A DNA stretch of 27,161 bases from IMG/VR virus record IMGVR_UViG_3300049459_000120, positions 1-27,161 of that record, one strand, 5' to 3'. Positions within the stretch are counted from its first letter, which is position 1. Each line of letters starts with the position of its first letter. Made by a program: the position numbers and the translations under genes. Shown here piece by piece: positions 7,167 through 25,470 of this stretch. The stretch is from a virus. The notes beneath the pieces were generated by a model that saw only the letters and a program-made list of their open reading frames with translations, did no database searches and was not told where the DNA came from.

Positions 7167-8636
7167 TCAATAGGTGAGGAACTGGCCACCGCCTGCGTTT
7201 GGCTGGCCAACTGGCATGCAGTTGCGGAAGTAGATTTTTGCCCCAGGGTCGATGTTGGTGGCAAAGGCCCAGGTGCCCGCCTGCATATCGATCTTCACGC
7301 TGTCGCACCAGATCTGCGATGTATCCTTGGCCATCACCGCCACTGGCACCTGCTGCCCGCCACCGCCAAGCACCGCATCGCCGCGGTCGTTCTTGATCCA
7401 CGTCCCAGCGAGCAGACCGGTAGACGTGCCAACGATGGCAACGGTGCCGCCGTGGGCCTCCTCATAGGCCCCGCACAGGTCGATACCCACACAGTTTTCG
7501 TGCAGCGTCCAGGCATTACAGGATTGCTGCCCGAAAATACCCGGATTCTTACCCGTGCAATTGACGGTGAGTACAGCCGCCTTGGCCGCCCCGTAGTTGT
7601 TGTGGATATTGAATATATCGGTGGCCGGGTTGCCGCCGTGACAGTTGAAGGCCGCGATCAGTCCGTTGAAGCTGTTGCCAGACACTGCCCGCGCGGTGCT
7701 GTTGATCTGTCCGCCGGCCTGCTGAAACCGCACGCTGCTGAACACCGAGCAGCCTGGCGTGGAAGCGGGGGAGGTACAGAGGAAGTCGACGATGCCATTG
7801 CCGTTAGACCCTTCCATGTCCCAGCTAGACCCATTAAGCGCGGTGAACATCACGTTCACCTGCGGTCCCATGATGTAGTTGGCAGCGCCACTGCGGTAGG
7901 CCCGAGTGTTGGCGTTGGTCACCGGCAGGCCGTCGGCGCGGTTTACGTAGATGTCGAAGGACGTGGAGTTCACCACAGCGCACCAGCTGTTCGGCGTGTT
8001 GTTGCAGATCGTCGGTGTGGCCACATACCGAAGCCGCGCATAGTCGCCCCAGATGTCTAACTCCAGGCGGTTGACGATGCGGTCACAGCTGCCCAGCAGC
8101 GGCAGTTTGTAACAGTTTGGGTAGGTCCCGTCGGCAGCGGCTGGCGGCGCATAGTTGTCGAAGGTGCCGGTCATCACCTTGCCACCGTAGGCCATGAACA
8201 CCATGTCCACGGTCGGGATGACAGCCACCCCTGAGTTGTTGCGTGGGTTGTTGTTTCTCGGGTACGAGCCCGCGGCTACCATGCCCATGCACGGATGCCC
8301 GGTCGCGTTGCCCAGGGCCTGCAGCTTGCCAATGGATTTGACCGGCAGGGCCTGCGTCCCGGGGTTGGTATCACTGCCAGACGGGGACGCCCAGAAGACG
8401 GCGAAGGGTGCGGTGAACGCCAGGGAGCGCAGCGAGAACAGCAGTTCGGGGGTGTAGTTCACCCAACCCACCTGTGGCGCCAGACCAAACGACTGGGTGA
8501 TCGTCATCTCTATGGGGAAGGTCTCGTGGTCCCACAGAAGCCCCTCAGGGATTTCCACCGGGTAAGCGTAGCCAGGGCGGGCGTATCGGCTATCCGCAAC
8601 ACTCATCGGGATGCCTGGCGCGTCCAAAATACTCAT
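7167..8636 (-). CDS. Beta-helix tail spike or receptor-binding protein
   Basis: The 489-residue product starts MSILDAPGIPMSVADSRYAR at ATG 8636, which overlaps the upstream stop in an ATGA. A short N-terminal adaptor domain is followed by FWASPSGSDTNPGTQALPVK, the characteristic entry of right-handed parallel beta-helix (pectate-lyase-like, DUF1565-type) proteins. Many short strand-turn repeats rich in Asn, Gly and Cys follow, and the protein ends AGGGQFLTY. Spikes with this fold bind and often degrade surface polysaccharide. The location among tail fibre genes, and the end-to-end coupling with two small genes, support a virion receptor-binding role. No catalytic residues can be assigned from reading, so depolymerase activity is inference. 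The open frame back to 8825 is a shadow of the upstream gene. Confidence 0.7.
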   Translation of the reverse strand: MSILDAPGIPMSVADSRYARPGYAYPVEIPEGLLWDHETFPIEMTITQSFGLAPQVGWVNYTPELLFSLRSLAFTAPFAVFWASPSGSDTNPGTQALPVKSIGKLQALGNATGHPCMGMVAAGSYPRNNNPRNNSGVAVIPTVDMVFMAYGGKVMTGTFDNYAPPAAADGTYPNCYKLPLLGSCDRIVNRLELDIWGDYARLRYVATPTICNNTPNSWCAVVNSTSFDIYVNRADGLPVTNANTRAYRSGAANYIMGPQVNVMFTALNGSSWDMEGSNGNGIVDFLCTSPASTPGCSVFSSVRFQQAGGQINSTARAVSGNSFNGLIAAFNCHGGNPATDIFNIHNNYGAAKAAVLTVNCTGKNPGIFGQQSCNAWTLHENCVGIDLCGAYEEAHGGTVAIVGTSTGLLAGTWIKNDRGDAVLGGGGQQVPVAVMAKDTSQIWCDSVKIDMQAGTWAFATNIDPGAKIYFRNCMPVGQPNAGGGQFLTY

Positions 8637-9061
8637 GCGACACCTTCCGTGATGATCAGATCGGGTTGAATGACGACGGCGCCCATGGCGTTGCGGGTGT
8701 ACGCCGGCTGCGTGATGGTCAGCGGCGGAGTGCTCAGGTACGTGACGTGCCAGGCATCCACAGCGCCAGGGAAAGAGGTGCTCAAGGTGTCGGCGATGAA
8801 CTCGCCGAGGACCTTGTCCGGCCACCGGACGTCAGCGCGGATCAGCGCCCCGTTGACGTCGCGCTCATCGCCCTTGAGCAAGGTGAAGTTGAGGACGGTG
8901 ACCCAGGCGATCAGGTTGGTCAGGTCCAGCTCGGCGAGTTTGTCGGTGATCGGGGTCAGGTTCGGTGTCGGTCCGGGCGGCCCGCGCAACTGACCTTCGC
9001 CTGTCGTAATCGTGATCCGCTCTGCGGTCCCAACCACAGTGATCTCAGTGGTTATCGTCAT
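8633..9061 (-). CDS. Tail-associated protein with short collagen-like patch (142 aa)
   Basis: The product begins MTITTEITVVGTAERITITT and contains a short GPPGPTPNLTP stretch of collagen-like triplets near residue 30. It then runs into a hydrophobic LAWVTVLNFTLLKGDE-type segment and a beta-rich C-terminal half. Short Gly-Pro patches are common linkers in phage fibre proteins. It is joined by ATGA overlaps to the genes on both sides, so three genes (9354 to 7167) form a single translational unit. A role as a connector or chaperone of the spike is inferred from position. No family is recognised. Confidence 0.6.
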   Translation of the reverse strand: MTITTEITVVGTAERITITTGEGQLRGPPGPTPNLTPITDKLAELDLTNLIAWVTVLNFTLLKGDERDVNGALIRADVRWPDKVLGEFIADTLSTSFPGAVDAWHVTYLSTPPLTITQPAYTRNAMGAVVIQPDLIITEGVA

Positions 9062-18043: not shown

Positions 18044-18382
18044 CTATGGCTGGAAGGCACGGTCAAAGGTGGCCGTGAGCTTGAATACGCCGCCACCCAC
18101 TGGAGTGGGTACGGGATTTTTGCAGGTGAACAGGCCTAGCTGGCCGAGCGGAGTTGTCCAGGCGAACGCCTTGGCCCCGGCGTGCCGATCGAGGAACTCC
18201 ATGATTTCCAGCACTTTGGCTTTTGGCCCGCTGTAGGAAATCGGGTAGGAGTCCTCTTTGTTGTTTGGCCCGTCGCCAGCCTCTTGCTTGTAGCCATCGC
18301 CGAACTGCGCGGTACGCACCCGATACTTAATCTCGGGCGAGCTACCACGCTCGGTTGGCCATCCGAATGTCTCGATTGCCAT
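18044..18382 (-). CDS. M: Minor tail protein M
   Basis: The 112-residue product starts MAIETFGWPTERGSSPEIKY and has RTAQFGDGYKQEAGDGPNN, the characteristic N-terminus of the phage_min_tail M-type family, then an alpha/beta body ending TATFDRAFQP. M sits at the tail tip under the tape measure. The ATG at 18382 overlaps the stop of the tape measure gene by one base (TGATG), with GGGAG in the coding end of that gene as ribosome site. A longer frame from 18430 would only read back into the tape measure gene. Confidence 0.9.
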   Translation of the reverse strand: MAIETFGWPTERGSSPEIKYRVRTAQFGDGYKQEAGDGPNNKEDSYPISYSGPKAKVLEIMEFLDRHAGAKAFAWTTPLGQLGLFTCKNPVPTPVGGGVFKLTATFDRAFQP

Positions 18383-21300
18383 CAAGCTCTCCCATTTACA
18401 TTTCGGAAACTGACACCACCGGCACGCCAAGACTCGGCTACAGCCCTTTCGGCTGCCGCCTTCATTTGCGTTTGTAGGTTCTGCTGAAGCGCCTGCTGGT
18501 CGAGCTGCATACCTTCCGAACTTCGATCCTGCGTAACCACGCTCACCGGCGCATTGATCTGTATGGAGCCCTGCCCGCCGCCGCTATTCATAGCAGCAAC
18601 ACGCGCCCCAGAGGTAAGCGGAGTGACACTGCCGCCGTTCGCGCCAGTCATGAGGAACGACTTGCCGCCCTCGCTATACAGCTCCGGCCCCAGTTCATTT
18701 ACCTGGTACATCGAATTCGGGGCGACAGGACCGCCAGCCGCTCGGTATCCGGAGAAATCGACATTGGTATAACCGGCCTGCGATGCGCCGACATTCGACG
18801 ACACAGCCCCGGTAGAGCCAGAGGTCAGGCCGTTCCCGGTACCGCTCCCAACGAAGTAGCTGGTCGCCGCGCCGACAAGGCTGTTAAGCAATGCCGAGCT
18901 GGCTTGCCGAGTTGCAATGCGAGCCATATCCGCAATGATCGACTTGGTGAAGTCCGCGAACGATAGCTTCCCGGTCATAGCGAAGTTGACGATCGCGTCC
19001 TCCATCGAGCTGAAGGCATTGGTGAACAGGCTTTTCGTCTGCCCGGCAACATCCCGCGCCGACTCCAGGTAGTTCTGCCACGCGGACGATGCGCCAGCGC
19101 TCCAGACTCCTTGGGCGGCGGTCATGTCGTTATAGTTGGATTGCACGGTGTCGTGCAGATCTTGCTGAGTGGCTTTCAGCGCGGCCAGCTTCTGGGTGTA
19201 CTCATCGAGACTCATTCCTCGGGAGCCATCGCCGTACTGGTTGGCCAACTCCAGTCGCTGCTGGTTGAAGCGGTCGTCGATTCCGTTCTGCTGATCCGTC
19301 AGCCCGCGTTGCCGGTCTCCCTGACCAAGGCCAGAAGCCGCCCGCAAGCCCTGCTGTCGCATCGTCTCGACCTGTTGCTGCAGTGCGCTGGTGTACGTGT
19401 TGACGGCCAGGGTCTGCTTGCGCAGGCGACCGTCTTCGTTGGTGGCGATGATCGACAGTTCGCTATCGCTCTCCTGCTGCGCCTTGACCATGGCGCTGCG
19501 GGCATCGGCAATCTTCTGATCAATCTGGATGACCTGAGCCGCAGTTGTGCCCTTCCTGGTCTTGGCTGCTTCGAGCGAATCGATCTCCGACTGATAGCTT
19601 TGGGCGACCTCAGTGGCCTCCTGTTGCAACAGACTGACGCGTTGCTCGGTGTAACTAGCCTGAGAGATCACCCCCGCCCGTTGCGATGCTTCAAGCTCCT
19701 TGTCCGCGTTTTTGTAATAGGCCAGGGTTTCGGCCAATACGTTCTTCGCATTGTTGAAGCCGGACAGATCGACACTGCCGGCGGCAGCCTTCGGATCCTT
19801 GAACTTGTCGTTTAGGTTCGCCATGTTCTTGGCGACTGCTGCCGGATCAAGCCGGGAGTCGTTCGGATTGACCTTCCGAATGTCGCCCAGGCTTTTCTTG
19901 TAATCCTTGATCGCCTCGGCGCGCTTCTGCTCGTTGGTCAGTGAGGACTTTGTGAGCGCGTCGACCTTCGACATCGCGACAACTGCGCTTTGCTGTGCCT
20001 TTGCCTGCTCACCGTCGTATTTGGCAATGTCGGCCGCCGCGGCCTTCTGATCTTCCAGCATGTTGAGCTGGTTGCTGTAGACCTCGACCATCTCTTTCTG
20101 GTTTTGGAACAAGCCAACATCGCCGGATTGGGCGGATGCAAGATTGCGCCGGGCCCGCTCGATATCAGCATCGATATCCGGCCGGCCGATGTTCTTCAAA
20201 CCATCCGCAGCCCGTGCAACAGCGTTGTAGCCCTTTTCCCAGAAGCTCAGGTTCTCGAGAATCTTCGGCGTGCGCTCGTTGATGGCGTCCGCGTATTGCT
20301 CGGTGGCAAGCTTCACAGCGCCTGCGTGGTCGCCCTGCTCTTCCATTGCTGCGATCTGCGAGTAAACCGAGGCTGTCAGGTAGTGGTACTGCTCGTTCAG
20401 TGCGGCAGATGCCTTCACTGGATCGTCGGCAAGCTTCGAAAACTCGGCGACGGTTTCGCTGACTGCTTTGCCCGTCGCTTCCTGCATGGAAACGGCGGCC
20501 TGGGTGATGCCAGTGAAACTCTCGCCCGCGATCTTGCCATTTCCAGCCAACAGCGCGAGAACAGCAGCAGCTTGGCCAGTGGTGCCGACGGTGGCGCTGA
20601 CCTGCCGCGCCATTTCGCCCAACTGCTCAGAGCTCACCCCTGCGGAGTTACCGGTGAGGACCAGGCCCTTGTTGTATGTGTCTTGCTCCTCGCTGCCCTT
20701 GTGATAGGCGTAGGCCAGGCCGCCAATTGCTGCGGTGGCCAGTGCGATCGGCGCAAGGATGGCAAGAAGGCCGGCAGCAGAAGCGCCAGCCCCTGCACCC
20801 AGCTGAGCGACGGCACGAACACCGCTACCCCAATCGCCAGAGGACAACGCATTGCCGAGCTGTACAACGTTTTCCTGCGCCTGTCGGGTGCCAAGCTTCA
20901 GCCGGTCGAAACCGGTGGCGGTTTTCTCCAGCGCCGCATAGTTACCGTCGATCTTGCTGAGAGCGGAGTTGTACTGGTCCTGGCTGATGCGGCCGGCATC
21001 CAGGTGTTTGCCCAATTGCTCAACCTGAGTGTCCAGCTTCGCCATCGAAGTTCGGGCCGGGTCGATTGCGCCGAGCAGGCTATTCAGCGCCTTTTGCTCA
21101 TCCAACGTCGACTTGGCCAGGGCCACCTGCTGCTTATCGAGTTGCGCGGTGATCTTGGTGAACTCGGCCTCGCCATAGGCGCCAGTCTTGGTGAGTTTCG
21201 CCAGACTTTCGCGCTGCTGGGCCAGTTCCTGCGTGGTGGTCGCGCCTTTCGACAGCGACTTCTCCAGCGCCTCCATCTCTTTCATCAGGCCGACGGCGGA

Positions 21301-21402
21301 CTGCTCAGCGCGATCACCGGCCTTGGTGAGCTTGTCGAGATCGGTCGCAGCCTGGGCAGCATCAGCCGAGTCGACCTTAATGCCGAGTTCTGCAATGTTC
21401 AT
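18382..21402 (-). CDS. H: Tail length tape measure protein (lambda H-like)
   Basis: The 1006-residue protein begins MNIAELGIKVDSADAAQAAT, a TMP_2-type start. It is dominated by long helical heptad-rich stretches, with a hydrophobic segment at about residues 205-235 (GLLAILAPIALATAAIGGLA) that probably enters the host membrane. The C-terminal part has SFADFTKSIIADMARIATRQ, the signature of the lambda tape measure C-terminal domain. Tape measure length sets tail length; by the usual ratio of about 0.15 nm per residue this predicts a tail near 150 nm. AAGGTGAG lies just before the ATG. It follows the G-T gene after 27 bases, as in lambda. Confidence 0.96.
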   Translation of the reverse strand: MNIAELGIKVDSADAAQAATDLDKLTKAGDRAEQSAVGLMKEMEALEKSLSKGATTTQELAQQRESLAKLTKTGAYGEAEFTKITAQLDKQQVALAKSTLDEQKALNSLLGAIDPARTSMAKLDTQVEQLGKHLDAGRISQDQYNSALSKIDGNYAALEKTATGFDRLKLGTRQAQENVVQLGNALSSGDWGSGVRAVAQLGAGAGASAAGLLAILAPIALATAAIGGLAYAYHKGSEEQDTYNKGLVLTGNSAGVSSEQLGEMARQVSATVGTTGQAAAVLALLAGNGKIAGESFTGITQAAVSMQEATGKAVSETVAEFSKLADDPVKASAALNEQYHYLTASVYSQIAAMEEQGDHAGAVKLATEQYADAINERTPKILENLSFWEKGYNAVARAADGLKNIGRPDIDADIERARRNLASAQSGDVGLFQNQKEMVEVYSNQLNMLEDQKAAAADIAKYDGEQAKAQQSAVVAMSKVDALTKSSLTNEQKRAEAIKDYKKSLGDIRKVNPNDSRLDPAAVAKNMANLNDKFKDPKAAAGSVDLSGFNNAKNVLAETLAYYKNADKELEASQRAGVISQASYTEQRVSLLQQEATEVAQSYQSEIDSLEAAKTRKGTTAAQVIQIDQKIADARSAMVKAQQESDSELSIIATNEDGRLRKQTLAVNTYTSALQQQVETMRQQGLRAASGLGQGDRQRGLTDQQNGIDDRFNQQRLELANQYGDGSRGMSLDEYTQKLAALKATQQDLHDTVQSNYNDMTAAQGVWSAGASSAWQNYLESARDVAGQTKSLFTNAFSSMEDAIVNFAMTGKLSFADFTKSIIADMARIATRQASSALLNSLVGAATSYFVGSGTGNGLTSGSTGAVSSNVGASQAGYTNVDFSGYRAAGGPVAPNSMYQVNELGPELYSEGGKSFLMTGANGGSVTPLTSGARVAAMNSGGGQGSIQINAPVSVVTQDRSSEGMQLDQQALQQNLQTQMKAAAERAVAESWRAGGVSFRNVNGRA

Positions 21403-21429: not shown

Positions 21430-21753
21430 TCACGGGCTGTTGTCGCGGGCTTCGGCCATAACCGCGATGGCTTCCGATTCCATTACGCGGATGTCTTGGA
21501 ACACGCGGGGGCGATCCTTTGCAGGGACGCCGACGAGTTTCATCACGTCGGGTAGGACGCCGTAGTCGAGGCCGGTCGCGCCGCATGCGCCTGTACGCCA
21601 CTGAGTTCCCATCGAATCCATGACAAGGAACGCCCTCCAGTTGTCCGGCCAGACTTCGAAGGTTTCGTCGTAGTCATCGGGCGAGAATCCAAACAGCGCC
21701 ATCTGTTCGGCTGAGCCATCGGATTCGTACAGCGCACGGGCAGCGGCGGTCAG
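21430..21753 (-). CDS. T: T portion of the G-T tail assembly chaperone (made by -1 frameshift)
   Basis: This frame reads LTAAARALYESDGSAEQMAL, then FGFSPDDYDETFEVWPDNW and a C-terminal part ending EARDNSP. It matches the DUF1799-type partner of tail chaperones. Coding quality extends well upstream of the ATG at 21702, back through the end of G to TAA at 21769-21771. It is therefore expected to be translated as the continuation of G after a -1 slip, not from its own ATG, which lacks a convincing Shine-Dalgarno. In lambda the G-T fusion binds the tape measure through the T part. The fusion here would have 127 + 107 = 234 residues. Confidence 0.8.
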   Translation of the reverse strand: MTAAARALYESDGSAEQMALFGFSPDDYDETFEVWPDNWRAFLVMDSMGTQWRTGACGATGLDYGVLPDVMKLVGVPAKDRPRVFQDIRVMESEAIAVMAEARDNSP

Positions 21754-22133
21754 TTTCCCAATCGAGCCTTACCGAAGGCTTCGCTGTACGCCTTCACCAC
21801 GGCATCTGAAACACCGACACAGCTCTTCACCAAGGCAGTGATCGACTCGTCGTTGAGCTTGTCGCCAAAACCCCAAGACACGACCAGATCCTTGATCTGA
21901 TCGACCCCCTGCTCAACCTCGGCTGCGGTGATATCCACAATGGTTGGTTTCGTGCCCTTGAAGCGTTCGCCAATGGCATCCGCTTTTTCCTTCCAAGAGT
22001 CGAACAGTTCAGCAAGTGCGGTGCGGTCGCGGTACTTGAACGTGAACGGCACCATGGCAGGCTTGTCGCCAACCTGCGGGATGGCCACATCGACGGTGAA
22101 CGTCGGCTTTGGCGCAATCGAAAACTTTGCCAT
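21750..22133 (-). CDS. G: Tail assembly chaperone G
   Basis: The 127-residue product starts MAKFSIAPKPTFTVDVAIPQ and contains FKYRDRTALAELFDSW and a helical end ASDAVVKAYSEAFGKARLGN-like in style. This is the phage tail assembly chaperone (TAC) family. The position between tail tube and tape measure, followed by an overlapping DUF1799 frame, is that of lambda G. It ends GGA AAC TGA, and the slippery heptamer lies exactly there. A TAC protein coats the tape measure and recruits tail tube subunits. The gene starts 9 bases after the tail tube stop. Confidence 0.88.
   Translation of the reverse strand: MAKFSIAPKPTFTVDVAIPQVGDKPAMVPFTFKYRDRTALAELFDSWKEKADAIGERFKGTKPTIVDITAAEVEQGVDQIKDLVVSWGFGDKLNDESITALVKSCVGVSDAVVKAYSEAFGKARLGN
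21753..21759 (-). promoter_or_regulatory. Programmed -1 frameshift site GGGAAAC
   Basis: On the minus strand the heptamer G GGA AAC fits X XXY YYZ in the zero frame of gene G, and the next codon is the G stop TGA. A slip of one base gives GGG AAA CTG ACC GCC and enters the T frame exactly. Lambda uses GGGAAAG at the same place in its G gene. No downstream hairpin was worked out. Confidence 0.85.
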
Positions 22134-22142
22134 GTGGACCCC

Positions 22143-22790
22143 TTAGGCGTTGTAGCGAGTTGGGCGGGAGGCGAACGACAGAGTGATGGTCCGCGTCATG
22201 ATGTTGTTGCGGCTCAGCGTCGGGGTCGCGGTGATCGACACGTACGCGTAGTAGTATATGGTCGCGCCGCCCGGAAGGTTTGCACGCACCAGGCGAGGCT
22301 CTTTGTCTTCGTCCGCCGCCTCGACAATCGCCACATACGCCTGGGCTGGATCGTCACCTACCGGCAGAGTCATGCTGCTGGCCGACTTGTTGGTAGGCAG
22401 CTGACGGTCATCGTCATCTTCAAGGAAGCCGTAGGTAAGGAACTGCTGCTCGCCGCCGTTGGCCGACGGCTCAGTGATTTGCGCGATCTGCGTCCATCCA
22501 GAAGCGGAGCGAACCTTGCCCGCGCCGGAGCCGGTCGGGTAGTTTTTCACGCTGGTGGTGTCCAGACCTTCAGCCGCGAACTCGCCGGTTTCCGAGTCGA
22601 TGACGCGCGCCGGGCGGCCGTTCAGCTTCGCCCAGGCAGAATCGATCACGATCACGTCGCCATCGGCCAGACCATGGGCAGCAGCAGTCAGGACCGCGGG
22701 CTTGGCGTTGCTGATAGCAGTGAAGGGTTTCGCAAGGCTCAACGTGGCCGCGATCTCGAACGTGGTGCCGTTGGGAATCTTGACGCTCAT
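22143..22790 (-). CDS. V: Major tail tube protein (V-like)
   Basis: The 215-residue product begins MSVKIPNGTTFEIAATLSLA and has AAHGLADGDVIVIDSAWAKL. It ends in an anti-parallel beta part with YYYAYVSITATPTLSRNNIM and SFASRPTRYNA. The length, the beta-rich character and the place between tail terminator and G identify it as the tail tube subunit; sequence similarity to lambda V itself is not evident. AGGA lies 8 bases before ATG 22790; the frame back to 22817 crosses the terminator hairpin. As an abundant virion protein it has a terminator-like hairpin just upstream. Confidence 0.85.
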   Translation of the reverse strand: MSVKIPNGTTFEIAATLSLAKPFTAISNAKPAVLTAAAHGLADGDVIVIDSAWAKLNGRPARVIDSETGEFAAEGLDTTSVKNYPTGSGAGKVRSASGWTQIAQITEPSANGGEQQFLTYGFLEDDDDRQLPTNKSASSMTLPVGDDPAQAYVAIVEAADEDKEPRLVRANLPGGATIYYYAYVSITATPTLSRNNIMTRTITLSFASRPTRYNA

Positions 22791-22814
22791 GGGTTTTCCT
22801 CTTTGCAGAAATGA

Positions 22815-22835
22815 CAAAACCCGCTCAATGGCGGG
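22815..22835 (-). terminator. Terminator-like hairpin before the tail tube gene
   Basis: On the minus strand CCCGC and GCGGG flank a six-base loop, followed by only four T residues and G. A second small dyad (GCCC-AAC-GGGC) lies at about 22846-22856. The weak T-run means it may be an RNA processing or stability element rather than a true terminator. Confidence 0.5.
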
Positions 22836-24875: not shown

Positions 24876-25439
24876 TTACGCCTTGGGCAGATCAGCGACG
24901 AGCTTTTCCAAGGAGTCTTTTGAGGCGTTCGCGCGGTAGGTCACGCCAGCGGCATCGAGCGTGGCCTTTAGGGCTTCGACTTCCTGACCTTCGCCCGCCT
25001 TTAGCGCTTGGAGTTCGCCGCGCAACTTCTCGTTGTCCGTAGCGAGGTCATCTCGCTTGCCCGCAAGCTCAGCTACCTGGACGCGAATGTGATCTAGTGC
25101 ATCGTACAGTCGAATTGCTAGTTCGCCGGCTTCCGGTTTTTCAATCTCGCCGGCTTCCAATCCATCAACCAGCAGGCGGATTGCATCGCTCTCGGCCCGC
25201 AGTTTGCCCACCAACTCTTCCAGCTGGCCTTGATTGCTGCCGCCCACAACTCGCGGCCGCGTCACATCCTTCACTGATATTTCGACTCCGGCAGCCTTAT
25301 AGGCATCAACCACATTTGGCCAGTCACCAACGACCAGAACACTGGTCACGTCAGCTTCTGGTTTGTCGAAATGTTCAGGGTTGCGATAACGCCTTCCCGG
25401 GTCAAACCCACTGAGCTGATTGCTGTATGTAAGTTCCAT
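24876..25439 (-). CDS. Coiled-coil protein after capsid gene, HeH/LEM-like C-terminus (187 aa)
   Basis: The start is set at the ATG of MELTYSNQLSGFDPGRRYRN (25439), which has GGAG 6 bases upstream; earlier ATGs at 25451 and 25460 have none. The middle third is a heptad-rich charged region (about residues 85-145) predicted to form a coiled coil. The end, LKATLDAAGVTYRANASKDS, resembles the small HeH/LEM fold (L-x-x-x-L-D-x-x-G-V/I-x-Y-x-x-x-A-x-K-x-x-L). Such a domain occurs at the ends of several phage head proteins. Location suggests a head decoration or completion protein; this is unproven. Confidence 0.65.
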   Translation of the reverse strand: MELTYSNQLSGFDPGRRYRNPEHFDKPEADVTSVLVVGDWPNVVDAYKAAGVEISVKDVTRPRVVGGSNQGQLEELVGKLRAESDAIRLLVDGLEAGEIEKPEAGELAIRLYDALDHIRVQVAELAGKRDDLATDNEKLRGELQALKAGEGQEVEALKATLDAAGVTYRANASKDSLEKLVADLPKA

Positions 25440-25452
25440 CGTGCTCTCCATG

Positions 25453-25470
25453 GCGGCCATTACTGGCCGC
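25453..25470. repeat. Perfect inverted repeat after the major capsid gene
   Basis: GCGGCC (25453-25458) and GGCCGC (25465-25470) form a six-base all-GC stem with the loop ATTACT. It lies 15 bases downstream of the capsid stop and 14 bases upstream of the next start at 25439. There is no T-run. It could protect the 3' end of capsid mRNA or lower translation of the next gene. Confidence 0.4.

Follow-up and report, generated by a model that had tools for sequence, protein, structure and literature searches.

A very probable programmed -1 frameshift at GGGAAAC joining the tail assembly chaperone frames G and T of a siphophage

Introduction

The tail module described here raises the question of how a short reading frame, T, situated between gene G and the tape measure gene, comes to be translated: as a gene of its own, or as the C-terminal part of a longer protein made by ribosomes that change frame at the end of G. 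The window (the whole stretch of DNA that was analysed, a viral record of 27,161 bases) contains a siphophage tail module on the minus strand in which Pfam and PHROG matches identify neck and tail terminator genes, the major tail protein, G, T, the tape measure protein, minor tail proteins and a central fibre J-like protein. G and T occupy the position of a chaperone unit, with the major tail (tube) protein (22143-22817, minus strand; PF08813, E 9e-60; phrog_584) as the upstream neighbour of G and the 1006-aa tape measure protein (18382-21402, minus strand; PF06791 and PF09718; phrog_24) as the downstream neighbour of T. The closest bacterial contigs carrying G are Pseudomonas genomes, so the host of the phage is most likely a Pseudomonas, as judged from sequence relationships. 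Elsewhere on the minus strand, the tail fibre genes are followed downstream by an ORF of 552 aa (7167-8825) that matches phrog_16653 ('hydrolase'); a protein encoded between the capsid and head-tail adaptor genes (24876-25460) matches phrog_2101, a family of unknown function, and has a weak match to an Arc-like repressor family.

Results and Discussion

The junction between G and T

Gene G (21750-22133, minus strand) runs from an ATG to a TGA and encodes a protein of 127 aa that matches the tail assembly chaperone family PF08748 (Phage_TAC_4) over its full length (E 1e-34) as well as phrog_569, as would be expected of the first protein of a G/GT pair. On the minus strand the end of the gene reads ...GCT CGA TTG GGA AAC TGA. 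The heptamer G_GGA_AAC (21753-21759) thus lies in the X_XXY_YYZ register of the zero frame, as the preliminary description had claimed, with GGA and AAC as in-frame codons, GGG and AAA available for re-pairing in the -1 frame, and the stop codon (21750-21752) directly 3' of it. The T frame is -1 relative to G and is open from 21768 to its stop at 21430-21432; from the C of AAC it reads LTAAARALYESDGSAEQM..., so that the slip product would be ...ARLGN-LTAAARALYESDG.... The T part comprises 107 codons (21430-21753, minus strand), beginning with CTG (21753-21751), and its match to PF08809 (DUF1799, E 3e-26) bears out the earlier assignment of this frame as DUF1799-like. The predicted fusion accordingly has 127+107 = 234 aa, the length given at the outset, and the whole G-T unit spans 21430-22133 (minus strand). 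A single family, PHROG 17368 (213 aa), matches both G and T, with T in its second half.

A slip site would rarely be found at such a place by accident. GGGAAAC occurs once in the whole window on both strands together, compared with 3.7 occurrences in dinucleotide shuffles, and in-register X_XXY_YYZ sites with A or T as Y number 5 per 4216 codon positions across twelve ORFs of the window. An upstream TAA in the T frame (21769-21771) limits the doubly open region to about 5 codons before the T part; since both frames are open for only this short stretch ahead of the G stop, about 0.006 in-register sites are expected there by chance. G contains one more X_XXY_YYZ site in register, GGGTTTT (21867-21873); it was rejected, as a -1 slip there would run into the T-frame stop at 21769-21771 at the latest.

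We consider it very probable from the sequence that G and T constitute a programmed -1 ribosomal frameshift unit of the tail assembly chaperone type, the evidence for which is very strong; the mechanism is familiar from many tailed phages, and the unit adds another case of it. Most ribosomes would terminate at the TGA that follows AAC, giving G, and a minority would slip one base back on G_GGA_AAC, re-pair on GGG AAA and continue in the T frame to yield the 234-residue GT. By analogy with lambda, many copies of G may coat the tape measure protein, and a few copies of GT, also on the tape measure protein, may use their T domain to bring in the tail tube protein. We infer the slippage itself as well as the roles of G and GT, and the slip rate of a few percent that had been suggested would be a figure carried over from lambda.

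Conservation of the heptamer in close relatives

The overlap was compared in related phages, as had been proposed when the locus was described. The close set consisted of 87 loci from viral contigs and Pseudomonas genomes (88 sequences with the window), collected with peptide patterns none of which spans the heptamer. In all 88 sequences GGGAAAC is retained and followed directly by the stop codon, and T lies in the -1 frame. Of the 42 sequences left for codon analysis after clustering at 95% DNA identity, every one has GGA as codon 126 and AAC as codon 127. On a tree built without codons 126-127, synonymous changes numbered 0 at codon 126, compared with a mean of 8.9 at well-conserved four-fold columns. 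The G stop varies (TGA in 58 and TAA in 29 of 87 sequences), and the first T codon always encodes leucine (CTG or CTA). The T part of the fusion begins at the last base of AAC, leaving the wobble base of GGA free in both proteins; since the T part does not include this base, the invariant GGA cannot be put down to overlapping coding.

Protein constraint on a C-terminal Gly-Asn, combined with codon bias, is another way in which the heptamer might be preserved, and it agrees with the invariance of Gly126 and Asn127 throughout the close set. However, GGA is a minority glycine codon elsewhere in G and T, each of the other nine glycine columns varies among two to four codons, and more distant relatives replace the glycine with lysine (AAA) while the X_XXA_AAC rule stays. 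Among the 88 close sequences, neither GGC AAC nor GGT AAT was found at the junction with an intact T frame. An explanation by protein constraint alone has next to no probability in our estimation.

T without a conserved start of its own

An internal ATG of the T frame (21700-21702, minus strand) is the start that an ORF caller would choose, and one alternative to frameshifting is that T is a separate gene, with ribosomes starting at this ATG by translational coupling or reinitiation past the G stop and the heptamer being incidental. In the window 48 nt separate the G stop from this ATG, and T has its own CDS with a downstream start in most GenBank records. The position is ATG in 59 of the 87 relatives, however, and the codon is missing from the other 28, and it is not preceded by anything resembling a Shine-Dalgarno sequence. 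Protein-level conservation extends over the 17 codons ahead of it, starting with the invariant leucine at the junction, and a separate start would leave the zero synonymous change in the GGA codon unexplained. Because coding begins right after the slip and the ATG is not conserved, a stand-alone start at 21702 is unlikely, in agreement with the preliminary description, which had regarded an annotation from that position as incorrect.

The coding character of the frame ahead of the ATG, also noted there, is evident from the pattern of substitution. Of the pairwise differences in codons 5-10 of the T frame, 1703 affect position 3 and 35 position 1, with 0 at position 2; across 41 diverse T sequences the leucine that is the first residue past the junction never varies, and A5 and Y9 hardly do. 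The T frame is thus protein-coding from the residue after the slip. When start codons were sought from the upstream stop to codon 17 of the T frame (looking back at most 60 bases into G), 21 of the 42 clustered relatives proved to have no ATG, GTG, TTG, ATT, ATC or ATA. The second frame overlaps the end of G in the -1 register in 88 of 88 sequences and has no conserved start of its own. Translation of T upstream of 21702 would most likely need ribosomes already engaged on G; T is unlikely to be a separate gene, and we regard coupling or reinitiation at the ATG as very improbable.

The slip site across the wider family

A wider survey, in which single sequences from distant relatives served as seeds, yielded 393 usable loci in 110 clusters at 90%. 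GGGAAAC or AAAAAAC stands in register 0 or 3 nt before the G stop in 389 of the 393 loci and 109 of the 110 clusters (GGGAAAC adjoining the stop, 248 loci; GGGAAAC one codon before it, 83; AAAAAAC adjoining it, 58). Since both heptamers are of the form X_XXA_AAC, the family, as far as its sequences indicate, so switches between two slip-competent sites rather than drifting among synonymous codons. Conservation on this scale, together with that in all 88 close sequences, leads us to dismiss chance as an explanation for the heptamer. Five further GenBank relatives, found through T, also carry one of the two heptamers, GGGAAAC or AAAAAAC, in the slip register upstream of the stop, at a distance of 0 to 9 nt from it, ZDD2 having the largest (9 nt). 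TAG does not serve as the G stop in any of the 393 loci, yet it does in two of these five records (PS-1 and ZDD2), and the notion that the G stop is never TAG was consequently dropped. In four loci (L321, L383, L384 and L109) the T frame is truncated 76-82 codons past the junction, reflecting sequence error or decay.

Loss of the heptamer with both frames retained, which the preliminary description had named as the pattern that would speak against a slip, was not seen in the 88 clade sequences or in 109 of the 110 family-wide clusters. The single exception is a clade of Klebsiella phages, comprising four loci (phiKp_7-1, Fuzzy_ER39, HBM00 and MUC-5; L105:1860-1884 and L112-L114) that read CGC CAA AAG CAC TAA at the junction, have no X_XXY_YYZ site and still carry T in the -1 frame. 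This clade likely slips on A_AAG within C_CAA_AAG, a non-canonical site.

The abutment of stop and slip site in most relatives is reminiscent of 'shifty stop' cases and could be taken to favor some other form of recoding into T, namely readthrough of the stop codon, a +1 shift, or an RNA polymerase that slips on the G3A3 run. Readthrough of the TGA and a +1 shift would, however, lead into the wrong frames, and in 20 of the 110 clusters the stop is one codon away from the heptamer, which is still in register. A run of three G and three A is a poor site for transcriptional slippage and fits tandem slippage of tRNAs. These other routes to T together carry only a very slight probability, and -1 slippage of the ribosome is the reading followed below.

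RNA signals around the slip site

No conserved downstream stimulatory RNA structure was found with RNAalifold in six windows of 36 aligned relatives (z -0.2 to -1.1); in the window by itself a 75-nt stretch folds at -20 kcal/mol, a structure that is not conserved. An internal Shine-Dalgarno sequence before the slip site was rejected as a family signal, as AAGG occurs in 24 of the 110 clusters, GAGG in 13 and AGGG in 1, with none of these in 72. A_AAA_AAC is reported to slip far less readily than A_AAA_AAG on E. coli ribosomes (PMC5009743), and for this reason the AAC site described here may be weak. A rather doubtful, though more than negligible, suggestion is that the stop 0-1 codon behind the heptamer, a near-constant feature of the family, is itself part of the signal: slow termination would hold the ribosome on the slip site after translocation, the G:GT ratio would depend on the supply of RF2, and the arrangement would substitute for the missing RNA structure and the weaker AAC site. 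The X_XXA_AAC-stop arrangement found throughout the family provides a clean natural set in which to test whether a stop next to the slip site tunes bacterial -1 frameshifting.

Predicted structures

Two phage proteins annotated as one-chain 'tape measure chaperone', one from Serratia phage Scapp (236 aa) and the other from Klebsiella phage Solomon (210 aa), are each matched by the structure models of both G (pLDDT 87) and T (pLDDT 86), as would fit a G-T fusion. Neither an NCBIfam match nor a sequence relative of G in the PDB was found. Among PDB chains the HK97 tail assembly chaperone 2ob9 ranks first against the G model, with a low Z of 4.7 (rmsd 4.7, 97 aligned), and the likeness of the modelled G to an HK97-type fold is only suggestive.

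Comparison with known systems and annotation

In lambda, a -1 slip near the end of G produces GT (Levin 1993; Xu, Hendrix and Duda 2004; both as cited in PMC5009743), at a G:GT ratio of about 30:1 (PMC5009743). Direct checks upheld the earlier statements that lambda slips at GGGAAAG and has the same gene order: the two units share the succession of major tail protein, G, T and tape measure, and they would also share the slip at GGGAAA(G) and a T made only as the C-terminal part of GT. They differ in that the lambda heptamer ends in AAG and is separated from the TGA of G by five sense codons, whereas the heptamer described here ends in AAC and is followed directly by the stop. The lambda proteins match PF06894 and PF06223, to which neither G nor T of the window is matched at E up to 0.001, the two giving only PF08748 and PF08809. 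The unit is therefore lambda-like in its predicted mechanism and in its order, and it is not a detectable sequence relative.

Parallels to the slip site are also found in other phages. In gp18/gp19 of Burkholderia phage KL1, GGGAAAC is the predicted slip site, lying directly ahead of the TGA that ends the first protein, and would give a -1 extended product (PMC3483164); compared by description, this is the same GGGAAAC-TGA arrangement, although in KL1 a further tail gene precedes the tape measure. The pre-tape-measure chaperones of Caulobacter phages phiCbK (AAAAAAC) and Colossus (GGGAAAC) (PMC3556154) use the same two heptamers as the G/T family, again compared by description, but in phages with large prolate heads; the model of T has a weak structural match in K4K660 of Colossus (TMq 0.73, E 0.21). 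The pre-tape measure frameshift protein of Serratia phage vB_SmaS-Smarc2 (MT980831) is of the same G/T type and is annotated as a two-piece joined CDS with AAAAAAC directly before TGA; its G is 28% identical to that of the window, and its slip site is A_AAA_AAC in place of G_GGA_AAC.

Smarc2 (L102) is the only one of the 27 GenBank relatives inspected (L089-L107, L112-L114 and L399-L403) in which the join of G and T is annotated. Relatives of T are present in 1,097 GenBank phage records, and DUF1799 most likely represents the T half of a chaperone made by frameshifting. The mechanism being already known, the unit is of value mainly for annotation, in that it corrects the naming of genes in a large family whose members are poorly labelled. 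Current labels are varied: several GenBank relatives name both G and T 'tail length tape measure protein', T of Acidovorax phage Aval is annotated as an FAD-dependent oxidoreductase, and HK639 and Pandora71 carry no annotation of T. In Pseudomonas phage YMC11/02/R656 the usual gene order is broken by an 'immunity to superinfection' gene inserted between T and the tape measure gene (L101:2298-2885).
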